Assembly (NCBI RefSeq): GCF_019973735.1
Contig: NZ_AP024463.1
Location: 2,666,001-2,730,000 of the forward strand
Direction of reading: 5' to 3'
Source: Arachnia rubra
Lineage (GTDB): Bacteria > Actinomycetota > Actinomycetes > Propionibacteriales > Propionibacteriaceae
Length of the DNA: 64,000 nt
The notes beneath the pieces are model-generated. The model saw nothing but the letters and a program-made list of their open reading frames with translations. It searched no databases and had not been told where the DNA came from. This document shows positions 37,604 to 45,000 of this stretch, piece by piece; within the stretch, counting starts at the first letter, position 1, and every line of letters starts with the position of its first letter. The position numbers and the translations under genes are program-made.

Positions 37604-37677
37604 ACCGGAATGTGATGCGGTTATTGCTTTCTTGACTAAATCCGGCCCCAGGCCTACTCTCTGATCGTTCATTTAGG

Positions 37678-37691
37678 TACTTACGTAAGTA
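37678..37691. promoter_or_regulatory. 14-bp perfect palindrome TACTTACGTAAGTA
   Basis: It lies 22 bases before ATG 37714 of the ROK-type repressor fusion. ROK repressors bind such palindromes near their own operon, so this is a good candidate operator for the sugar import operon. Confidence 0.6.
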
Positions 37692-37713
37692 TTCTGAGAA
37701 ATTGAGGTCGCTG

Positions 37714-39999
37714 ATGCCCCCGAGCACGCACGGAAGCAGGCCAAGCCGCATGGCCAGCGTCTATGAGACGCTCGTCACGCATCCGAACTCGACCGTCAGC
37801 TCGCTGATGAGGCAGACCCGGCTCTCGCGACCCACCATCACCACTCTGCTCGACTCCCTCACCGAGATGGGCCTGGTCGCCCCCCAGGGGGCGGAGGGTA
37901 GTGTCGGGCGGCCCGCTGAAACCTGGGCGCCGCGCAAGGACGCCGGGGTGGTCATCGGCGTCGATCTGCTCCAGCACAGCGTCCTGCTGGCCGTGGCCCA
38001 GCTCGACGGCGAGATCATCGAGACGGACCACCGCTCCGGCCTGAGCGTGGACAGCTCGGTCCGGTTCAGGAATGTGCTGGACCTGATCAGCAAACACGTC
38101 ACCGAGGGCACCGCCGGCCCGCCGCGCGCCATCGTCATCTCCACCACCGGGACCGTGGACCTGGATGGCCGCCTGATGCGCAGCGACGCCGTGCCGCAGT
38201 GGGAGGGTTTCGACCTGGGCAAGGAGCTGTCGCAGCGCCTCAGGCTCCCGGTGCGCATCGAGAATGACGTGAATGCCGCGGCTTTCGGGGAGTTCGCGCT
38301 GCGCTGCGGCGATGGCTCCCTCAGCCCCGGCGACGACCTCCTGCTGATCGCCCTGTCCCGGGCGATTGTCACGGGCCTGGTCATGAACGGCAAGCTGCAC
38401 CGGGGGCACCGGCAGAACGCCGGGGAGGTCGGGCTCCGGATCGTCGACGGAGTGGGGCTCTCGCCTGGAAGCCTGGCGCGTGCCGCCGAGAGCATCGGCA
38501 CCGTCTCCGCTGTCCTGGACCCGGCCAGCATCGTCCTGACCCTGCCGAACCGGGAATCCCCCGGGATCCTCGCCGAGATCATCGAACACCTGCGCACCGC
38601 CCGCGAATCCAGTGCCGCGGAACTCAACCTCGAGGTCTCCCGCCTCGGGCAGGGATCCGCCATCGTCGGCGCTCTCTCCCTGGCCCTCCAGGAGGCCCGG
38701 ACCAGTCTCTTCGGCGAGTCCACCGCGCTCATACCGATCCCGAAGGGCCTCAACCACATCACGAGAATCACAGCGAGAGGAATCCACTACCCCATGTCCA
38801 CGGTAAAGCCGGCCGCCTCTGACCGGGCGACGCTGCGCATCGGCGTAGTCGGGGTGGGAGCCCGCTCCGACATCGCCAAGCACTTCGAGCTCCCCGGGCT
38901 GAACTGCCGCATCACCGCTGCCGCGGAGCCCCACCCCGACGGCGAGGCCCGCATCCTGAACCGCATCGGCCGCAGCGACATCAAGCTGACGAGCAGCGTC
39001 ACCGAGCTGATCGCCGAGGGCATCGACGCGGCCCTGGTGACCTCTCCCGACGACACCCACGCGCAGGTGGCCTGTGAGCTGTTGCGGGCTGGCGTGCCCG
39101 TTTACGTCGAGAAACCACTCGCGACCCGCATGGACGACGCGATCGCCATCCTGCAGACCGCGTACGAAACCGGCACGAAGCTGTACGTCGGGCACAACAT
39201 GCGTCACATGCACGTGGTGCGCTCGATGCGGGACCTGATCCGCCGCGGCACCATCGGCGAGGTGAAGGCCATCTGGTGCCGTCATTTCGTCGGCAATGGC
39301 GGTGACTACTACTTCAAGGACTGGCATGCCACCCGTGAGCACGGCACCGGGCTGCTGCTGCAGAAGGCCGCCCACGACCTGGATGTGATGCACTGGCTGG
39401 CTGGCTCCCACACCGAGCAGGTGACCGCGATGGGCGGCCTGACCCTCTACGGCCAGATCACCGACCGCCAGGACCGCTCCGACCAGCTGCTGGGCGACTG
39501 GTTCAGCATGGACAACTGGCCTCCGCTGTCGCAACGGGGCCTCAACCCAGTGGTGGACGTCGAGGACCTGTCGATGATGCTGATGCGGATGGAGTCGGGG
39601 CTGTTCGCCTCCTACCAGCAGTGCCACTACACCCCCGACTACTGGCGCAACTACACCGTGATCGGCACCGAGGGTCGCATCGAGAACTTCGGCGACTACG
39701 AGGGCGGGCACATCAAGCTGTGGAACCGCCGTCACCTCTACGACCCAGAGGGCGATGCCCAGTTCCCGATCAAGGGCGACGACAAGGGACACGGCGACGC
39801 CGACGTCCTGACGGTCAGCGAGTTCGTCTCCTTCATCACCGAGGGCACCCCGACGGACACCTCCCCGCTCGGCGCGTGGTACGCCGTCGCCGCGGCCATC
39901 GCCGCAACAGATTCCATCCGTAACGGCTCTTCCCCCCGGGACATCCCGAAGCTGGCTCCGGAAGTCATCGACTATTTCAACAACAACCAGGTCAAATGA
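37714..39999 (+). CDS. ROK-type repressor fused to Gfo/Idh/MocA oxidoreductase
   Basis: One uninterrupted 761-residue ORF. Residues about 10-60 form a winged helix (NSTVSSLMRQTRLSRPTITT), followed by a ROK domain to about 345 (GVVIGVDLLQHSVLLAVAQL, STTGTVDLDGRLM, RIENDVNAAAFGEFALRCGD). The ATP/zinc parts are weak: LIALSRAIVTGLVMNGKLHR replaces the glycine-rich phosphate loop and no CxCGxxGC cluster is seen. From about 368 a Gfo/Idh/MocA enzyme follows: IGVVGVGARSDIAKHF, VEKPLATRMDD (typical EKP), LLLQKAAHDLDVMHWL. ATG 37714 has TTGAGGT upstream. A separate start for the enzyme at ATG 38794 (GAGAGGA 12 bases upstream) is possible. It heads a sugar ABC importer operon and likely senses its sugar. 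Confidence 0.85.
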   Translation: MPPSTHGSRPSRMASVYETLVTHPNSTVSSLMRQTRLSRPTITTLLDSLTEMGLVAPQGAEGSVGRPAETWAPRKDAGVVIGVDLLQHSVLLAVAQLDGEIIETDHRSGLSVDSSVRFRNVLDLISKHVTEGTAGPPRAIVISTTGTVDLDGRLMRSDAVPQWEGFDLGKELSQRLRLPVRIENDVNAAAFGEFALRCGDGSLSPGDDLLLIALSRAIVTGLVMNGKLHRGHRQNAGEVGLRIVDGVGLSPGSLARAAESIGTVSAVLDPASIVLTLPNRESPGILAEIIEHLRTARESSAAELNLEVSRLGQGSAIVGALSLALQEARTSLFGESTALIPIPKGLNHITRITARGIHYPMSTVKPAASDRATLRIGVVGVGARSDIAKHFELPGLNCRITAAAEPHPDGEARILNRIGRSDIKLTSSVTELIAEGIDAALVTSPDDTHAQVACELLRAGVPVYVEKPLATRMDDAIAILQTAYETGTKLYVGHNMRHMHVVRSMRDLIRRGTIGEVKAIWCRHFVGNGGDYYFKDWHATREHGTGLLLQKAAHDLDVMHWLAGSHTEQVTAMGGLTLYGQITDRQDRSDQLLGDWFSMDNWPPLSQRGLNPVVDVEDLSMMLMRMESGLFASYQQCHYTPDYWRNYTVIGTEGRIENFGDYEGGHIKLWNRRHLYDPEGDAQFPIKGDDKGHGDADVLTVSEFVSFITEGTPTDTSPLGAWYAVAAAIAATDSIRNGSSPRDIPKLAPEVIDYFNNNQVK

Positions 40000-40022: not shown

Positions 40023-41285
40023 ATGAAGCGTCGCACGTTCCTGGCGGCCGCCTCAGTACTTGGAATCGCACCTGCCCTGTCCGCCTGCTCCAGCCAGACC
40101 AGCCAGGGCTCCGCGGAGTCGCTGAGCAAAGACACCGAGGCCGAGCTGACTCTGTTCTACTGGGACAAGGCTCAGAAGCCCACCATCGAGGCCAACATCG
40201 CCGCCTTCAACAAGGAGTACCCGAAGATCAAGGTGACTCCGTCGGTCGCGGTCTACAAGGACTACTGGACCAAACTGCGCACCCAAGCCGAGGGCGACCA
40301 GCTGCCCGACGTGTTCTGGATGAACGGCCCCAATTTCCAGCTCTATGCCGGCAACGGGATGCTCGCCGAACTCGACGACCTCCAGGACGTCGCCTGGGAC
40401 AAGTACCCCAAGGCCCTGGTCGACCTCTACACCGCCGAGGGCAAAAAGTACGGGGTACCGAAGGACTTTGACACCATCGCCTGCTTCATCAGCAAGGAGA
40501 TCTTCACCAAGGCCGGCGTCGCGGTCCCCACGAGCGGCTGGACCTGGGAGGAACACCACGCCGCCGCCAAGGCCATCGCCGACGCCAAGGCGGGCTACGG
40601 CGTGGTCGTCGGGCTGACGGACCACCAGTCCAGCTACTACAACACGATCTACCAGGCAGGCGGCTACGTCATCAAGGACCGCAAGTCCGGATATGACGAC
40701 CCCAACACCATCAAGGGCATCCAGTACTGGGTTGACATGATCAAGGACGGCTCCATGCCTGAGCCGAAGGTCATCGCCGACACCGAGGCAGATCATCTCT
40801 TCATGGATGGCCAGGCGGGCATCCTGTGGGGTGGTTCCTGGCTGGTCAAGACGCTGCGTGAGAAGTTCACGGGCGACGAGGTGGTGGTGGTGCCGCTGCC
40901 CAAGGGTGAGAAGGAGGCCACCATCATCCACGGCCTGTCCTACGCTGCCTCGGCGAAGTCGAAGAACCTGCCCGCTGCGAAGGCACTGATCAAGGCGTTC
41001 ACCAGCCAGGCCGGCGAGGAGACGGAGGCCACCAACGGGACCGCGATCCCGGCGTTCAACGGCACCCAGGCCAAGTGGCTGGAACAGGCACCCAGCTGGA
41101 ATCTCGACGTGTTCACTAAGGCCGCCGACAGCTACGCCGTTCCCTACCCGGTGTCGAAGAACACCGCGGTCTGGGAGGAGAAGCAGAACACCATCCTCAG
41201 TGACGTGTTCACCGGCCAGCTGGCCGCCGAGGAAGGCTGCAAGAAGCTGGCTGCCGAGATGAACACGGCCCTCGGACAGGAGTAA
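40023..41285 (+). CDS. Sugar ABC transporter substrate-binding lipoprotein
   Basis: The 420-residue precursor begins MKRRTFLAAASVLGIAPALS and has a lipobox around SAC (residue about 22), with twin arginines possibly allowing Tat export. The body is an SBP_bac_1 sugar-binding fold: LFYWDKAQKPTIEANIAAFN, LRTQAEGDQLPDVFWMNGPN, GWTWEEHHAAAKAIADAKAG, GILWGGSWLVKTLREKF. ATG 40023 has AAGGAGAA upstream. It precedes two permease genes; a shared ATPase elsewhere (MsiK type) would power the importer, since none is encoded here. Confidence 0.92.
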   Translation: MKRRTFLAAASVLGIAPALSACSSQTSQGSAESLSKDTEAELTLFYWDKAQKPTIEANIAAFNKEYPKIKVTPSVAVYKDYWTKLRTQAEGDQLPDVFWMNGPNFQLYAGNGMLAELDDLQDVAWDKYPKALVDLYTAEGKKYGVPKDFDTIACFISKEIFTKAGVAVPTSGWTWEEHHAAAKAIADAKAGYGVVVGLTDHQSSYYNTIYQAGGYVIKDRKSGYDDPNTIKGIQYWVDMIKDGSMPEPKVIADTEADHLFMDGQAGILWGGSWLVKTLREKFTGDEVVVVPLPKGEKEATIIHGLSYAASAKSKNLPAAKALIKAFTSQAGEETEATNGTAIPAFNGTQAKWLEQAPSWNLDVFTKAADSYAVPYPVSKNTAVWEEKQNTILSDVFTGQLAAEEGCKKLAAEMNTALGQE

Positions 41286-41290
41286 GTGAG

Positions 41291-42229
41291 ATGACCGTCG
41301 ACAGGAGCGGCGGGGCCAAGGTGTCGCCCTCCCGCCGGCGTCGCGTCAACCCGATGTCAGTGGGGGCCTGGCCCCTGCTGTTCATCGGGCCCCTGATGCT
41401 CGGCGTCCTGATCTTCTACTATTTCCCGATCATCGGGAACCTGTACGCGTCCTTCACGAAGACGAATGCCTTCGGCGGCAATCAGAAATTCGTCGGGCTC
41501 GACAACTACACGGATCTGCTGGCCCGCCCGGACCTCCCCTCGGCGACGGTCAACACCCTCTTCTACACGGCCGTGGTGCTGCTGGCGGTGCCGTTCTCAG
41601 TGGTGATCGCCTCGCTACTGGAGTTGCCGGGCCTGAAGGGCCGCTCCCTCTACCGGGTCCTGTTCTTCATGCCCTACCTGGCGATGCCGGTCGCGATCGT
41701 CCTGGTGTGGCGGCTGTTCTTCAACGGCAACTTCGGGCTGCTGAACCAGACGGTCAAGGCGCTCGGCGTGGCTGACCCGCCCTACTGGCTGTCCACCCCA
41801 GGGCTCGTCATCCTCGCCGTCGCGTTCTTCGGGATCTGGGCATCGATCGGTTTCAACGTGATCATCCTGTCGGCTGGCCTGAAATCGATCCCCAAAGAGC
41901 TCTACGAGGCCGCGCAGCTGGACGGAGCGGGTGCCTGGCACCAGTTCAAGAACATCACGGTCCCGCTGCTGACACCGTCGATCTTCTTCCTGACGATCAT
42001 GCAGGCCATCGGAGGCTTCCAGCTCTTCGACGCACTGTTCGGGATGCTCGGGCTGAACAATCCTGCGGCGGGCGCCTCCCGGTCGCTGGTCTCGCTGTTC
42101 TACCAGGAGGCATTCGTCAATAACAACCGGGGTGCCGGGGCTGCGATCTCCATCATGATTCTCCTGCTGGTGGGCGCGGTCACCGCGGTCCAGTTCTGGG
42201 CACAGAAGAAGTGGGTGCACTATGTCTGA
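41291..42229 (+). CDS. Sugar ABC transporter permease 1 (MalF type)
   Basis: The 312-residue membrane protein has six hydrophobic segments and the cytoplasmic EAA motif YEAAQLDGAGAWHQFKNIT (residues about 208-226) that contacts the ATPase. It starts 5 bases after the binding-protein stop and overlaps the next permease by 8 bases. MalF-type members form half of the sugar channel. Confidence 0.92.
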   Translation: MTVDRSGGAKVSPSRRRRVNPMSVGAWPLLFIGPLMLGVLIFYYFPIIGNLYASFTKTNAFGGNQKFVGLDNYTDLLARPDLPSATVNTLFYTAVVLLAVPFSVVIASLLELPGLKGRSLYRVLFFMPYLAMPVAIVLVWRLFFNGNFGLLNQTVKALGVADPPYWLSTPGLVILAVAFFGIWASIGFNVIILSAGLKSIPKELYEAAQLDGAGAWHQFKNITVPLLTPSIFFLTIMQAIGGFQLFDALFGMLGLNNPAAGASRSLVSLFYQEAFVNNNRGAGAAISIMILLLVGAVTAVQFWAQKKWVHYV

Positions 42230-43067
42230 GCGTTCACACAACACCTGGAGGCAGCAGGTACGGCTTCTGCCCGCTCACATCATCCTGCTCCTCGGCGGCC
42301 TGACGATGGTCTTCCCGTTCGTGTGGCAGGTGATGATGTCCCTGTCGACGAACCCCGAGATCCAGTCCGTGCCGCCGCAGTTCCTCCCTGCCACACCGCA
42401 GTGGAACAACTACGTGGACGTGTTCGCCCGGATGCCTTTCCTCTCGCAGTTCTGGACGTCGCTGCTGATCACGGTGATACGGACGGGAGCCCAGCTGCTC
42501 CTGTGCTCGATGGCGGGCTATGCCTTCGCCCGGATGCAGTTCCGGGGACGGAATGTGCTGTTCGGCCTGCTGCTGGCGATCCTCATGATCCCAAGCCAGG
42601 CGTTCCTGATCACCCAGTACCAGATCGTCAAGGGCATGGGCCTGCTGGAGACCCCCTGGGGAATCGTGCTGCCCGGGCTGTTCTCCGCCTTCGGAACGTT
42701 CCTGATGCGGCAGGCCTTCATGTCACTGCCCAAAGAGCTGGAGGAGGCTGCCCGCCTCGACGGCTGCAACCCGTGGCAAGTGTTCTGGAAGGTGATGCTG
42801 CCGCTGACCAAGCCCAGCCTGTTCGCCGTCGCCATCACGACGGTGCTGTGGAGCTGGAACGACCTGCTGTGGCCGCTGATCGTCACCACCCGCGAGACGA
42901 ACATGCCGCTCAGCGTCGGCATCGCGACCTTCGCCGGACAGCACCAGGCTGACTGGAACCTCATGATGGCGGCCTCCGTGATGGCGATGGCGCCGATCTT
43001 CGCGCTGTTCTTCGCCATGCAGCGCAAGGTCATCGAGGGCCTGGCGACCTCCGGCCTGAAGGGCTGA
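42222..43067 (+). CDS. Sugar ABC transporter permease 2 (MalG type)
   Basis: The 281-residue protein has six helices and the EAA motif EEAARLDGCNPWQVFWKVML. It overlaps the MalF-type gene by 8 bases, so the two are translated together. With the binding protein it imports a sugar or oligosaccharide whose identity is not visible; the oxidoreductase fused to the regulator suggests a modified sugar. Confidence 0.92.
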   Translation: MSERSHNTWRQQVRLLPAHIILLLGGLTMVFPFVWQVMMSLSTNPEIQSVPPQFLPATPQWNNYVDVFARMPFLSQFWTSLLITVIRTGAQLLLCSMAGYAFARMQFRGRNVLFGLLLAILMIPSQAFLITQYQIVKGMGLLETPWGIVLPGLFSAFGTFLMRQAFMSLPKELEEAARLDGCNPWQVFWKVMLPLTKPSLFAVAITTVLWSWNDLLWPLIVTTRETNMPLSVGIATFAGQHQADWNLMMAASVMAMAPIFALFFAMQRKVIEGLATSGLKG

Positions 43068-43153: not shown

Positions 43154-43516
43154 CTACTCGAAGGCGATCTCCAGCTCCTCCGCCATTGACTTAAGACGCT
43201 TGTCCCGGGTCCACAGTCGCGCCCCTGGCACCACGAGGACCGCGCCGAGCAGGTTGACGTCCACCAGGCTGAGGCCGCGGCCCCACAGGCGCCTGGACTC
43301 CACGAGGTGCAACATTTCGTCGTCCTGCAGGCTGGGAAACCGGTGCAGGTTCTCCAGGTAGGACATCCGCACCGAGCGAGCGGGCATGGAACTGAGCGCC
43401 AGCTCGCCGATCACCATGGCGTGACAGCCCGCCTCGTCGCCACGCAGCAGACGGACCAAACGCAGGTCGCTGCGGCGAAAGTGGTCGATCCAGACGGAGG
43501 TGTCGACGAGGATCAC
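43154..43516 (-). CDS. vapC: VapC-type PIN-domain toxin
   Basis: The 120-residue protein begins MILVDTSVWIDHFRRSDLRL, with the first catalytic Asp (VDTS), a conserved GEL in MVIGELALSS, the Asp in LSLVDVNLLGAV, and WTRDKRLKSMAEEL, so all the acidic residues of PIN RNases are present. Its start overlaps the antitoxin stop by 4 bases. VapC toxins cut initiator tRNA or rRNA when freed from VapB. Confidence 0.88.
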   Translation of the reverse strand: MILVDTSVWIDHFRRSDLRLVRLLRGDEAGCHAMVIGELALSSMPARSVRMSYLENLHRFPSLQDDEMLHLVESRRLWGRGLSLVDVNLLGAVLVVPGARLWTRDKRLKSMAEELEIAFE

Positions 43517-43719
43517 TTGGCGAGGTCTCCAAGGTCCCGGTTGCGCGCCGACGCCTGCGCCTCGGGCTCAGCGCCACCCAGTGCCGCCAGCCGCCGGGCA
43601 CTCTCAACGCGGATCAGCGTCTCCAGGCCCTCGCGGAGCAGAACGGAACGCTCCTTGACCCCAGTGAGCTCCTGGGCGCGGCTCACCAGGTCATCGTCCA
43701 AGGTCACCGTGGTTCTCAT
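43513..43719 (-). CDS. vapB: VapB-type antitoxin
   Basis: The 68-residue protein from ATG 43719 (GAGAGGA upstream) starts MRTTVTLDDDLVSRAQELTG, a ribbon-helix-helix DNA-binding domain, and ends in a linker that wraps the toxin. An ORF extends to 43773, but that start lies before the ribosome site. It represses its own operon with VapC. Confidence 0.85.
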   Translation of the reverse strand: MRTTVTLDDDLVSRAQELTGVKERSVLLREGLETLIRVESARRLAALGGAEPEAQASARNRDLGDLAK

Positions 43720-43941
43720 GATCGTCCTCTCCGGCATCAAAACTAGCATCAGATGATGCTTTTCCAGCCTCATCCCTGCCTGTCCGACATGACAGATCGA
43801 ACCACATTCTCAGGCCATCGGTCCAAAATCTTGCTGACAATCAGACCGGCATGAGCTGCTGCCACAGCGCCCTCCGAAGCAGGAAGCCCCTACGTTCCGT
43901 CACGTCCAGGCGGCCTTCAAGGCCGAGAGGATCACCGTCTA

Positions 43942-45000
43942 TCAGGCCCACCGGCTGGGCAGCGCCGCGGCAGCCTCCAGGAGCATCCACGCCGAGGCCT
44001 GCACTGACAGGTCCCGCTCTGGGATCCGGCTCCTCCGGTCGGGAACCTGCGCGGGCTGGCTCCATTCATGCCCGAAGACCGGCAGCCCGTCCGCCCCCTC
44101 CGCCGCGTTGCGCCACGCGGCATCCGCGGAGACCCGCACCATGTGCGCGGCGAGCTCCCGGGTAGCGTCATCGCCCTCCAGCCGGTTGGCCACGAGCGCC
44201 AGGTAGCGGGCCAGGATGCCCGCGAACAGGCCGCCGTCGTCGCCATCACGCCCGATCATCACCCCCTCATAGGTGAGGTGACGCGAAGTGGCTGCCACCA
44301 GGTCGGCGATCCGGCGCGGCGACTGCGACCCCATCACCTCTAGCTCAGCGCCGAGCACAACGCCCTGGCAGTAGGTGTAGATGGTGTCGTCGCGCCTGGG
44401 TCCCTCCGGGGTCTGGACGATCCCATCGGCCACCAGGCCGTTGCCGAGCATCAGGTTCCCGGCGATCCAGTCGGTGATCCGCACCGCCTCGTCGCGATAC
44501 CCGGCGCGAGCCAGCATGATGGCCACCGGGCCGTTCGCAGGAGCGTTGAGGAAATTGTCGCCGATCCGCCAGGGCACCACACCCTCGGCCCGGATCGCAC
44601 CGCGGCAGGCCCGGATGATGGAGGCCGCGCTGAACGACAGCTCGAAGACGTCCTGGGCACGCTGCAGGGCAAGTCCCCACCAGGCCATGTCGTCGTAGAA
44701 GCGGTTGGTGCGCCTGCCGCCGTTACGGATCAAGCTGGCGCGCGCCATCCGCCGGGCCAGCCGGGCCCGTTGCAGGCTGGGGGCACGCAGCTGGGCGTCA
44801 GTGATGCAGTCGAGCAGGTGTGCCTGCCACCAGTAGTGCCATGCCAGGAACAGCCGGTGGGACAGCCGCGACGGGTGGGAGATCACCCCGCCCCGGGTCC
44901 CGGGAAGAGCCCAGATCCGCCGGATGCTGCGCGTCAGGACAGCCTGCTCAGCCAGCGCGGCCCGCCCGGCCGGGGTGTCGGTCTGCATTCGCCCTCCCAT
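43942..45000 (-). CDS. GH76-family glycoside hydrolase-like protein
   Basis: The 352-residue (alpha/alpha)6-barrel protein has WHYWWQAHLLDCITDAQLRA at the start, the catalytic-pair motif FYDDMAWWGLALQRA near residue 104, RACRGAIRAEGVVPWRIGDN, then YTYCQGVVLGAELEV and LTYEGVMIGRDGDDGGLFAG. This matches GH76, alpha-1,6-mannanases; actinobacterial members without a signal peptide, as here, probably act on intracellular or envelope mannan intermediates. Start GTG/ATG near 45000 is uncertain. Confidence 0.75.
   Translation of the reverse strand: MGGRMQTDTPAGRAALAEQAVLTRSIRRIWALPGTRGGVISHPSRLSHRLFLAWHYWWQAHLLDCITDAQLRAPSLQRARLARRMARASLIRNGGRRTNRFYDDMAWWGLALQRAQDVFELSFSAASIIRACRGAIRAEGVVPWRIGDNFLNAPANGPVAIMLARAGYRDEAVRITDWIAGNLMLGNGLVADGIVQTPEGPRRDDTIYTYCQGVVLGAELEVMGSQSPRRIADLVAATSRHLTYEGVMIGRDGDDGGLFAGILARYLALVANRLEGDDATRELAAHMVRVSADAAWRNAAEGADGLPVFGHEWSQPAQVPDRRSRIPERDLSVQASAWMLLEAAAALPSRWA

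Follow-up and report, generated by a model that had tools for sequence, protein, structure and literature searches.

A single 761-aa reading frame (37714..39999, forward strand, open and without a stop) in the window analyzed here, a 64,000-nt stretch of the Arachnia rubra genome, joins a winged helix and a ROK domain to a complete Gfo/Idh/MocA oxidoreductase. What goes beyond the fusion itself is an internal start kept at the domain junction, from which the fused gene likely still makes the free enzyme. The best overall explanation, which we hold to be rather probable, is a conserved ROK-Gfo fusion that likely arose from a tandem gene pair, would repress its own operon and likely also yields the oxidoreductase alone. 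Such a gene would provide a testable case of a repressor joined physically to the enzyme it controls, with the free enzyme retained. Fused copies that retain the internal start, among them those of Acidipropionibacterium and of the skin genus Cutibacterium, would conceal a second protein should that start be used.

The fused reading frame and its domains

Pfam analysis of the 761-aa protein revealed a TrmB-type winged helix (residues 14-58), a ROK domain (81-241) and the two parts of a Gfo/Idh/MocA oxidoreductase (374-494 and 502-739). A TTG codon at 37702 adds four codons to the 5′ end of the frame. The junction (residues 301-420) is spanned by one chain in all 120 relatives listed, of 481 database matches. 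In 112 of these 120 the length is exactly 761 aa, and their identity amounts to 86-100% in 114 cases and 70-77% in the other six. The same full-length frame, without a stop, is present in 23 of 198 genomes of the family, representing three genus groups (count made from the scan table). A scan of 396 genomes of the phylum gave four matches at the set limit, and only two of these (the window's own genome and G469) were full length, which makes the fusion rare beyond its own clade. A plasmid search returned five records, all with short matches only. Database names for the fused protein are “oxidoreductase” in two rows and “ROK family protein” in one.

The uninterrupted frame of winged helix, ROK domain and oxidoreductase described by an earlier, sequence-only reading of this DNA is thereby confirmed. 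The protein database search that it proposed recovered the same fusion, as a single chain across the junction in every one of the 120 listed proteins, and the stop or frameshift near 38750-38794 that it named as counter-evidence is absent from all of them. Two normal genes whose separating stop had been lost by sequencing error would show the gene order seen here, which is the same as that of tandem rok-gfo pairs elsewhere. However, the recurrence of the open frame in the 120 listed relatives and in 23 of 198 family genomes from three genus groups rules out such an error, leaving this explanation a negligible probability.

The DNA-binding part (residues 9-73; 37738..37932, +) was delimited on the basis of Pfam TrmB, conservation of an SRPT motif and the structure model. 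The TrmB match scores 26.0 bits, just above the Pfam cut-off of 25.6, and the N-terminal model comprises helices (residues 9-51) followed by strands (55-73). The adjoining ROK fold (residues 79-333; 37948..38712, +), identified by Pfam, its closest folds and alignment, matches the first half of profile PF00480 with 74 bits (cut-off 22.9), and its best Foldseek matches are the ROK repressors 4ija and 5f7q. SRPT, N184 and AGE do not vary among 36 aligned ROK rows, of which 90% or more have D185. This half is thus predicted, with confidence in the model, to adopt a ROK-repressor fold with a winged helix. The possibility of a ROK kinase rather than a repressor is disfavoured by the presence of the winged helix and by closest folds that are mostly repressors.

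The classical ROK zinc motif consists of a His plus CxCGxxGC. Inspection of the alignment by eye found no such motif, whether in the window's protein, in the other fused rows or in the tandem ROK rows shown, and the stretch following AGEVG is approximately 30 residues shorter in the fused ROK than in a tandem homologue (L093). We therefore class the domain as a degenerate ROK-type domain and not as a classical ROK protein, and the term “degenerate ROK” used in the sequence-only reading was apt. Like ROK repressors of the Mlc, NagC and XylR type (4ija, 5f7q), the fused protein combines a winged helix with a ROK fold and likely has a palindromic operator ahead of a sugar operon. Unlike them, it is shortened, lacks the zinc motif and continues C-terminally into an entire oxidoreductase.

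The Gfo/Idh/MocA half (residues 374-757; 38833..39984, +) contains both expected domains, an N-terminal Rossmann domain and a C-terminal alpha/beta domain. Its EKP motif (E466, K467 and P468) is conserved in 120/120 listed proteins and invariant in an 18-row alignment. The lysine of this motif is catalytic in Gfo/Idh/MocA oxidoreductases, and from its retention we infer that this half is active. The nearest folds are the NAD-dependent sulfoquinovosidases 8qc3 and 8qc5 (GH188) and the 1,5-anhydrofructose reductase 2glx, with which the fused protein shares the fold over 320-345 residues, the NAD-binding half and EKP. It differs from all three in the attached N-terminal regulator, and identity is only about 20% (about 21% to the best fold match, GH188, to which the likeness is one of fold only). 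GH188 is a family of NAD-dependent glycosidases with sulfoquinovoside activity (PMC10755693). Neither the Gfo half nor the transporter had an NCBIfam match above the cut-off; all matches fell below it.

The Gfo half also shows a weak sequence match to the eukaryotic protein Gal80 of yeast (3btu, 3v2u). Gal80 is a Gfo/Idh/MocA-fold protein in transcription control and is not known to be fused to a DNA-binding domain. Among the papers listed by literature searches none described a ROK-Gfo/Idh/MocA fusion, which does not prove that there is none. The Cutibacterium acnes N-glycan loci described in PMC6160142 were not matched to the fused gene.

A candidate internal start at the junction

The earlier claim that the frame yields one chain stands in so far as the fusion is real and conserved, but the fused chain probably accounts for just half of what the gene makes. 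A Shine-Dalgarno (SD)-like AGAGGA (38776..38781, +), distinguished by its pairing energy and by a shuffle scan, lies 12 nt before an in-frame ATG (38794..38796, +) where the Gfo domain begins, a feature that the sequence-only reading had overlooked. This conserved codon, Met361, is the predicted start of a free oxidoreductase of 401 aa. It is directly followed by residues 362-371 (38797..38826, +), a predicted disordered linker that is the sole internal segment with a pLDDT under 50 in the full structure model. The conserved SD-like sequence and start codon together lead us to predict a free oxidoreductase besides the fused chain; the detection of two proteins would leave the fusion standing.

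The 16S rRNA tail CACCTCCTTTCT was found twice in this genome, and the matching SD sequence is therefore AGAAAGGAGG. The anti-SD pairing energy at the internal ATG (-9.9 kcal/mol) is as strong as at the operon's own likely starts, i.e. the ATG of the fused gene (-9.2), the ATG at 40023 of the following sugar-binding protein gene (-9.7) and the starts of the two permease genes (-9.2 and -9.0). The 12-nt gap between AGGA and ATG is longer than the usual SD spacing. At fixed spacing, the junction follows the codon pattern [AAA/AGA/AAG/GAA]-[mostly GGA]-NNN-CAY-NNN-NNN-[ATG/GTG/TTG].

Across 32 sequences the mean pairing energy at the junction was -9.31, against -6.72 (sd 0.32; best shuffle -7.50) for a null of 300 synonymous shuffles per gene that preserved the protein and its codon usage. 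These shuffles argue against a chance SD-like sequence. Compared singly with their own shuffles, 15/32 sequences fell at or below 0.05 and 9/32 above 0.2 (L009, which at 0.86 is worse than the null mean, L054, L045, L010, L041, L044, L084, L083 and L037). As many single sequences are weak by this measure, the signal resides in the set.

A scan of 753 codon columns was performed with 18 lineages, hand-picked from the 32 to thin near relatives and with an intact ROK (median ROK identity 40%); these still share ancestry, so the sequences are not independent. The junction column ranked first. Its excess pairing was -2.71 kcal/mol, against a mean of 0.08 and an sd of 0.56 over all columns, and its mean energy was -9.14; the three adjacent columns draw on the same stretch of DNA, and the best column apart from these reached -1.48. 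The junction energy was below its own null in 17/18 lineages, and the junction codon is ATG or TTG in 16/18. Codon choice at the junction is likewise skewed. Glycine is encoded by GGA in 12/18 lineages (14% overall), the highest value among 43 conserved Gly columns (next 7/18), lysine by AAA in 11/13 (26%) and arginine by AGA in 2/2 (2%). Part of the junction signal is at the protein level, since the KG dipeptide and His358 are themselves conserved.

Position 361 is Met in all 120 listed database relatives. Farther relatives have Val encoded by GTG (L014, L050) or Leu encoded by TTG (L007, L087), and in the 32 sequences the codon varies only among ATG, GTG and TTG, save two losses, in L010 (CTC) and L054 (GCA), both of which are still fused. 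The free enzyme is thus not indispensable everywhere. Genome G060 contains a pair of clade-A fusions, of which the first (L072, L037) has the internal start and the second (L073, L054) lacks it.

Six of the 23 genomes, including the window's own, possess a second, paralogous fused copy (clade B) that is 41-46% identical. The copy in the window's genome (G000:C1:672987-675272; L021:4479-6803) is 45% identical, has a longer linker and lacks an internal start. Across the eight clade-B loci, none of the in-frame starts around the junction pairs better than -6.2. An ABC sugar transporter is encoded near the copy at G000:C1:672987-675272, and at the related clade-B locus L024 a melibiase-type gene is placed between the fusion and the transporter.

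It is conceivable that only the 761-aa protein is made, that the junction element is a relic of the earlier gene start, and that the protein resembles a trigger enzyme in which DNA binding follows the state of the oxidoreductase. Versions restricted to the full-length product do exist, as clade B retains the fusion but offers no usable start within it, and L010 and L054 stayed fused after losing theirs; all 120 listed database proteins are, moreover, single chains. A relic should, however, decay at synonymous sites over a divergence corresponding to 40% median ROK identity, whereas the junction column is the strongest of 753 and its codon is confined to the three start codons apart from the two losses in 32 sequences. 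We regard this single-product interpretation as unlikely. The two-product interpretation is preferred: at the domain boundary stand a conserved SD-like sequence and a start codon, as in genes whose in-frame internal start gives a second product, and from this conservation of sequence we infer that the start is used.

Two described systems work in comparable ways, and neither is a relative of the fused gene. In Rhodobacter capsulatus a single gene gives the regulator AerR in a long and a short isoform by means of an in-frame start within the gene, which was studied via silent changes of this start and the ribosome-binding site (PMC6199135). AerR thus resembles the fused gene as one regulator gene with an internal in-frame start (here predicted) and two forms. 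It differs in that no more than about 40 residues are missing from its short form and no separate enzyme results; the passages concerned tell of no gene-fusion history. In phage endolysins of the CTP1L type, an SD sequence placed with a start codon in the linker between the domains yields a free C-terminal domain, which co-assembles with the full-length protein (PMC4777826). CTP1L as described there differs in being a lytic enzyme and no regulator, and its free part is a binding domain.

Tandem relatives and the probable origin of the fusion

The 80 named loci (the best 80 of 199) comprise 22 with ROK and Gfo fused in one frame, 15 with the two close together in different frames and 43 with no nearby ROK. 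The last group was defined by tblastn with the window's ROK at 1e-5, by which distant ROK genes may be missed, and includes L095, where the ROK match is 5.3 kb away. Fourteen of the 15 two-frame loci are separate tandem ROK-Gfo pairs, in keeping with the earlier remark that ROK repressors and such enzymes are usually separate neighbours; the remaining one (L086) is a split former fusion. The genes overlap by a few bases (ATGA, GTGA or ATGGTGA) in 10/14 tandem pairs, i.e. L089, L093, L094, L098, L114, L115, L119, L126, L133 (if GTG is the start) and L134. A sugar-binding protein gene follows gfo in 11/14 tandem and 19/22 fused loci, nearly always together with both permease genes.

A tree of 107 Gfo domains (a quick LG+G4 tree, midpoint-rooted, with 30 of 103 forks open) placed the main fusions in a 49-row group with 98% SH-aLRT support, in which the overlapping Bowdeniella pair L089 stands beside the other 48 rows. 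The fusions of Flexivirga and Microbacterium gorillae are located elsewhere in the tree, near a tandem pair. Solo Gfo genes are nested in the fused clade (L085, L012/L013, L088 and L091/L092/L103/L109), and the fused, tandem and solo states need 11 changes on this tree. At the join of the separate M. gorillae fusion (L099), GAGGAGG precedes an in-frame ATG by 8 nt. Of the other distant fusions, L147 has a weak element only (GGAG nine bases before ATG) and L090 none that is clear.

These relationships suggest that the fused gene likely descends from a tandem rok-gfo pair. Since the main fusions and those of Flexivirga and M. gorillae stand apart in the tree, fusion probably arose at least twice, by stop loss and a change of frame between overlapping genes. 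In the proposed scenario the stop between the two genes of the ancestor would have been lost and the enzyme's own start kept.

In Cutibacterium modestum (L086:6901-7190) the fused gene has come apart again into separate ROK and Gfo frames, which may reflect a sequencing error. The ROK frame stops at its long C-terminal helix, before the element is reached, while element and ATG are both retained by the Gfo frame. The ROK part contains a stop in G017 and a frame break in G049, and Gfo and the element are kept in each. In G008 ROK is broken and Gfo is also in three pieces, while L085, from a metagenome-assembled genome, has Gfo with the element, no ROK and a sugar-binding protein gene in three pieces; because of this fragmentation both are given little weight. 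Likely steps of this history are all represented in the family: tandem genes that overlap, fusions that kept the start, fusions that lost it (L010, L054 and clade B) and re-splitting (C. modestum).

Candidate operator, operon and proposed regulation

A promoter-like sequence, TTGACT-17-TACTCT (37632..37660, +), was read by eye upstream of the fused gene and is followed by the perfect palindrome TACTTACGTAAGTA (37678..37691, +), a likely operator. The palindrome is the sole site in the genome with up to two mismatches, compared with eight per strand for the control pattern read backward, and 5/5 relatives examined (68-87% identity) have it, at an unchanged distance, as TACTT[A/G]CGTAAGTA. The suggestion that it is a fitting operator therefore remains plausible, for a single site. 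Half-sites TT[ATG]CG[ATC]AA occur within 170 bases upstream of 19/31 fused or tandem loci, against 0.46 expected from single-base shuffles; several gene starts were hand-set and the pattern was picked after inspection of upstream sites, which makes this a description and not a blind test.

Downstream, the operon comprises genes of a sugar-binding protein (40023..41285, +; Pfam SBP_bac_1) and of the ABC transporter permeases A (41291..42229, +) and B (42222..43067, +), the latter two assigned by Pfam BPD_transp_1 and synteny. Besides the ATG at 40023 with its strong SD sequence, the sugar-binding protein gene has an ATG with a weak SD at 39996, overlapping the gfo stop.

The long frame might instead serve chiefly for translation-coupled production of the enzyme, with a ROK half devoid of regulation and the free oxidoreductase as the relevant product. 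The shortening of the ROK half and its missing zinc motif would fit, as would the four loci whose ROK is broken or split and whose Gfo element is kept, and the ROK-less L085. Against this stand the invariant SRPT, N184 and AGE and the nearly invariant D185 of the 36 ROK rows, the confident ROK-repressor fold with a winged helix in the model, and the genome-unique, conserved palindrome. In addition, two of the broken or ROK-less loci come from error-prone or decaying assemblies (G008, G010). We judge this alternative improbable.

In the favoured model, with both a repressor and a free enzyme, the 761-aa protein would bind the upstream palindrome through its winged helix and repress its own operon. 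The free 401-aa enzyme would be made from the same mRNA and convert the sugar that is imported; it could also form mixed assemblies with the oxidoreductase half of the repressor. A ligand in the ROK pocket, the substrate and NAD(H) status of the attached enzyme, or both, may bring about induction. A more speculative version, which we put forward tentatively and think rather doubtful, is that the free enzyme swaps into the oxidoreductase oligomer of the repressor, so that enzyme dose and substrate/NAD state would set repression directly; the protein would then be a tethered-enzyme sensor, with a dose governed by the internal start retained through the fusion.

Just downstream of the operon, Pfam identified genes of a VapB antitoxin and a PIN-domain toxin (43154-43773, -). 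A glycosyl hydrolase family 76 (GH76) gene (43942-45000, -) is located 0.9 kb beyond the permease genes, and GH76 homologues were found approximately 0.1 kb (L067) and 2.3 kb (L066) past the permeases of the same operon. Together with the melibiase gene beside the L024 fusion, the GH76 gene of the window gives a hint, and only that, of oligosaccharides as substrates. In Actinomyces and Leifsonia, more Gfo/Idh/MocA genes lie downstream of the same operon (L080:11424-12584, L084:11411-13506 and L114:12686-13741), suggesting a multi-step oxidoreductive sugar pathway.
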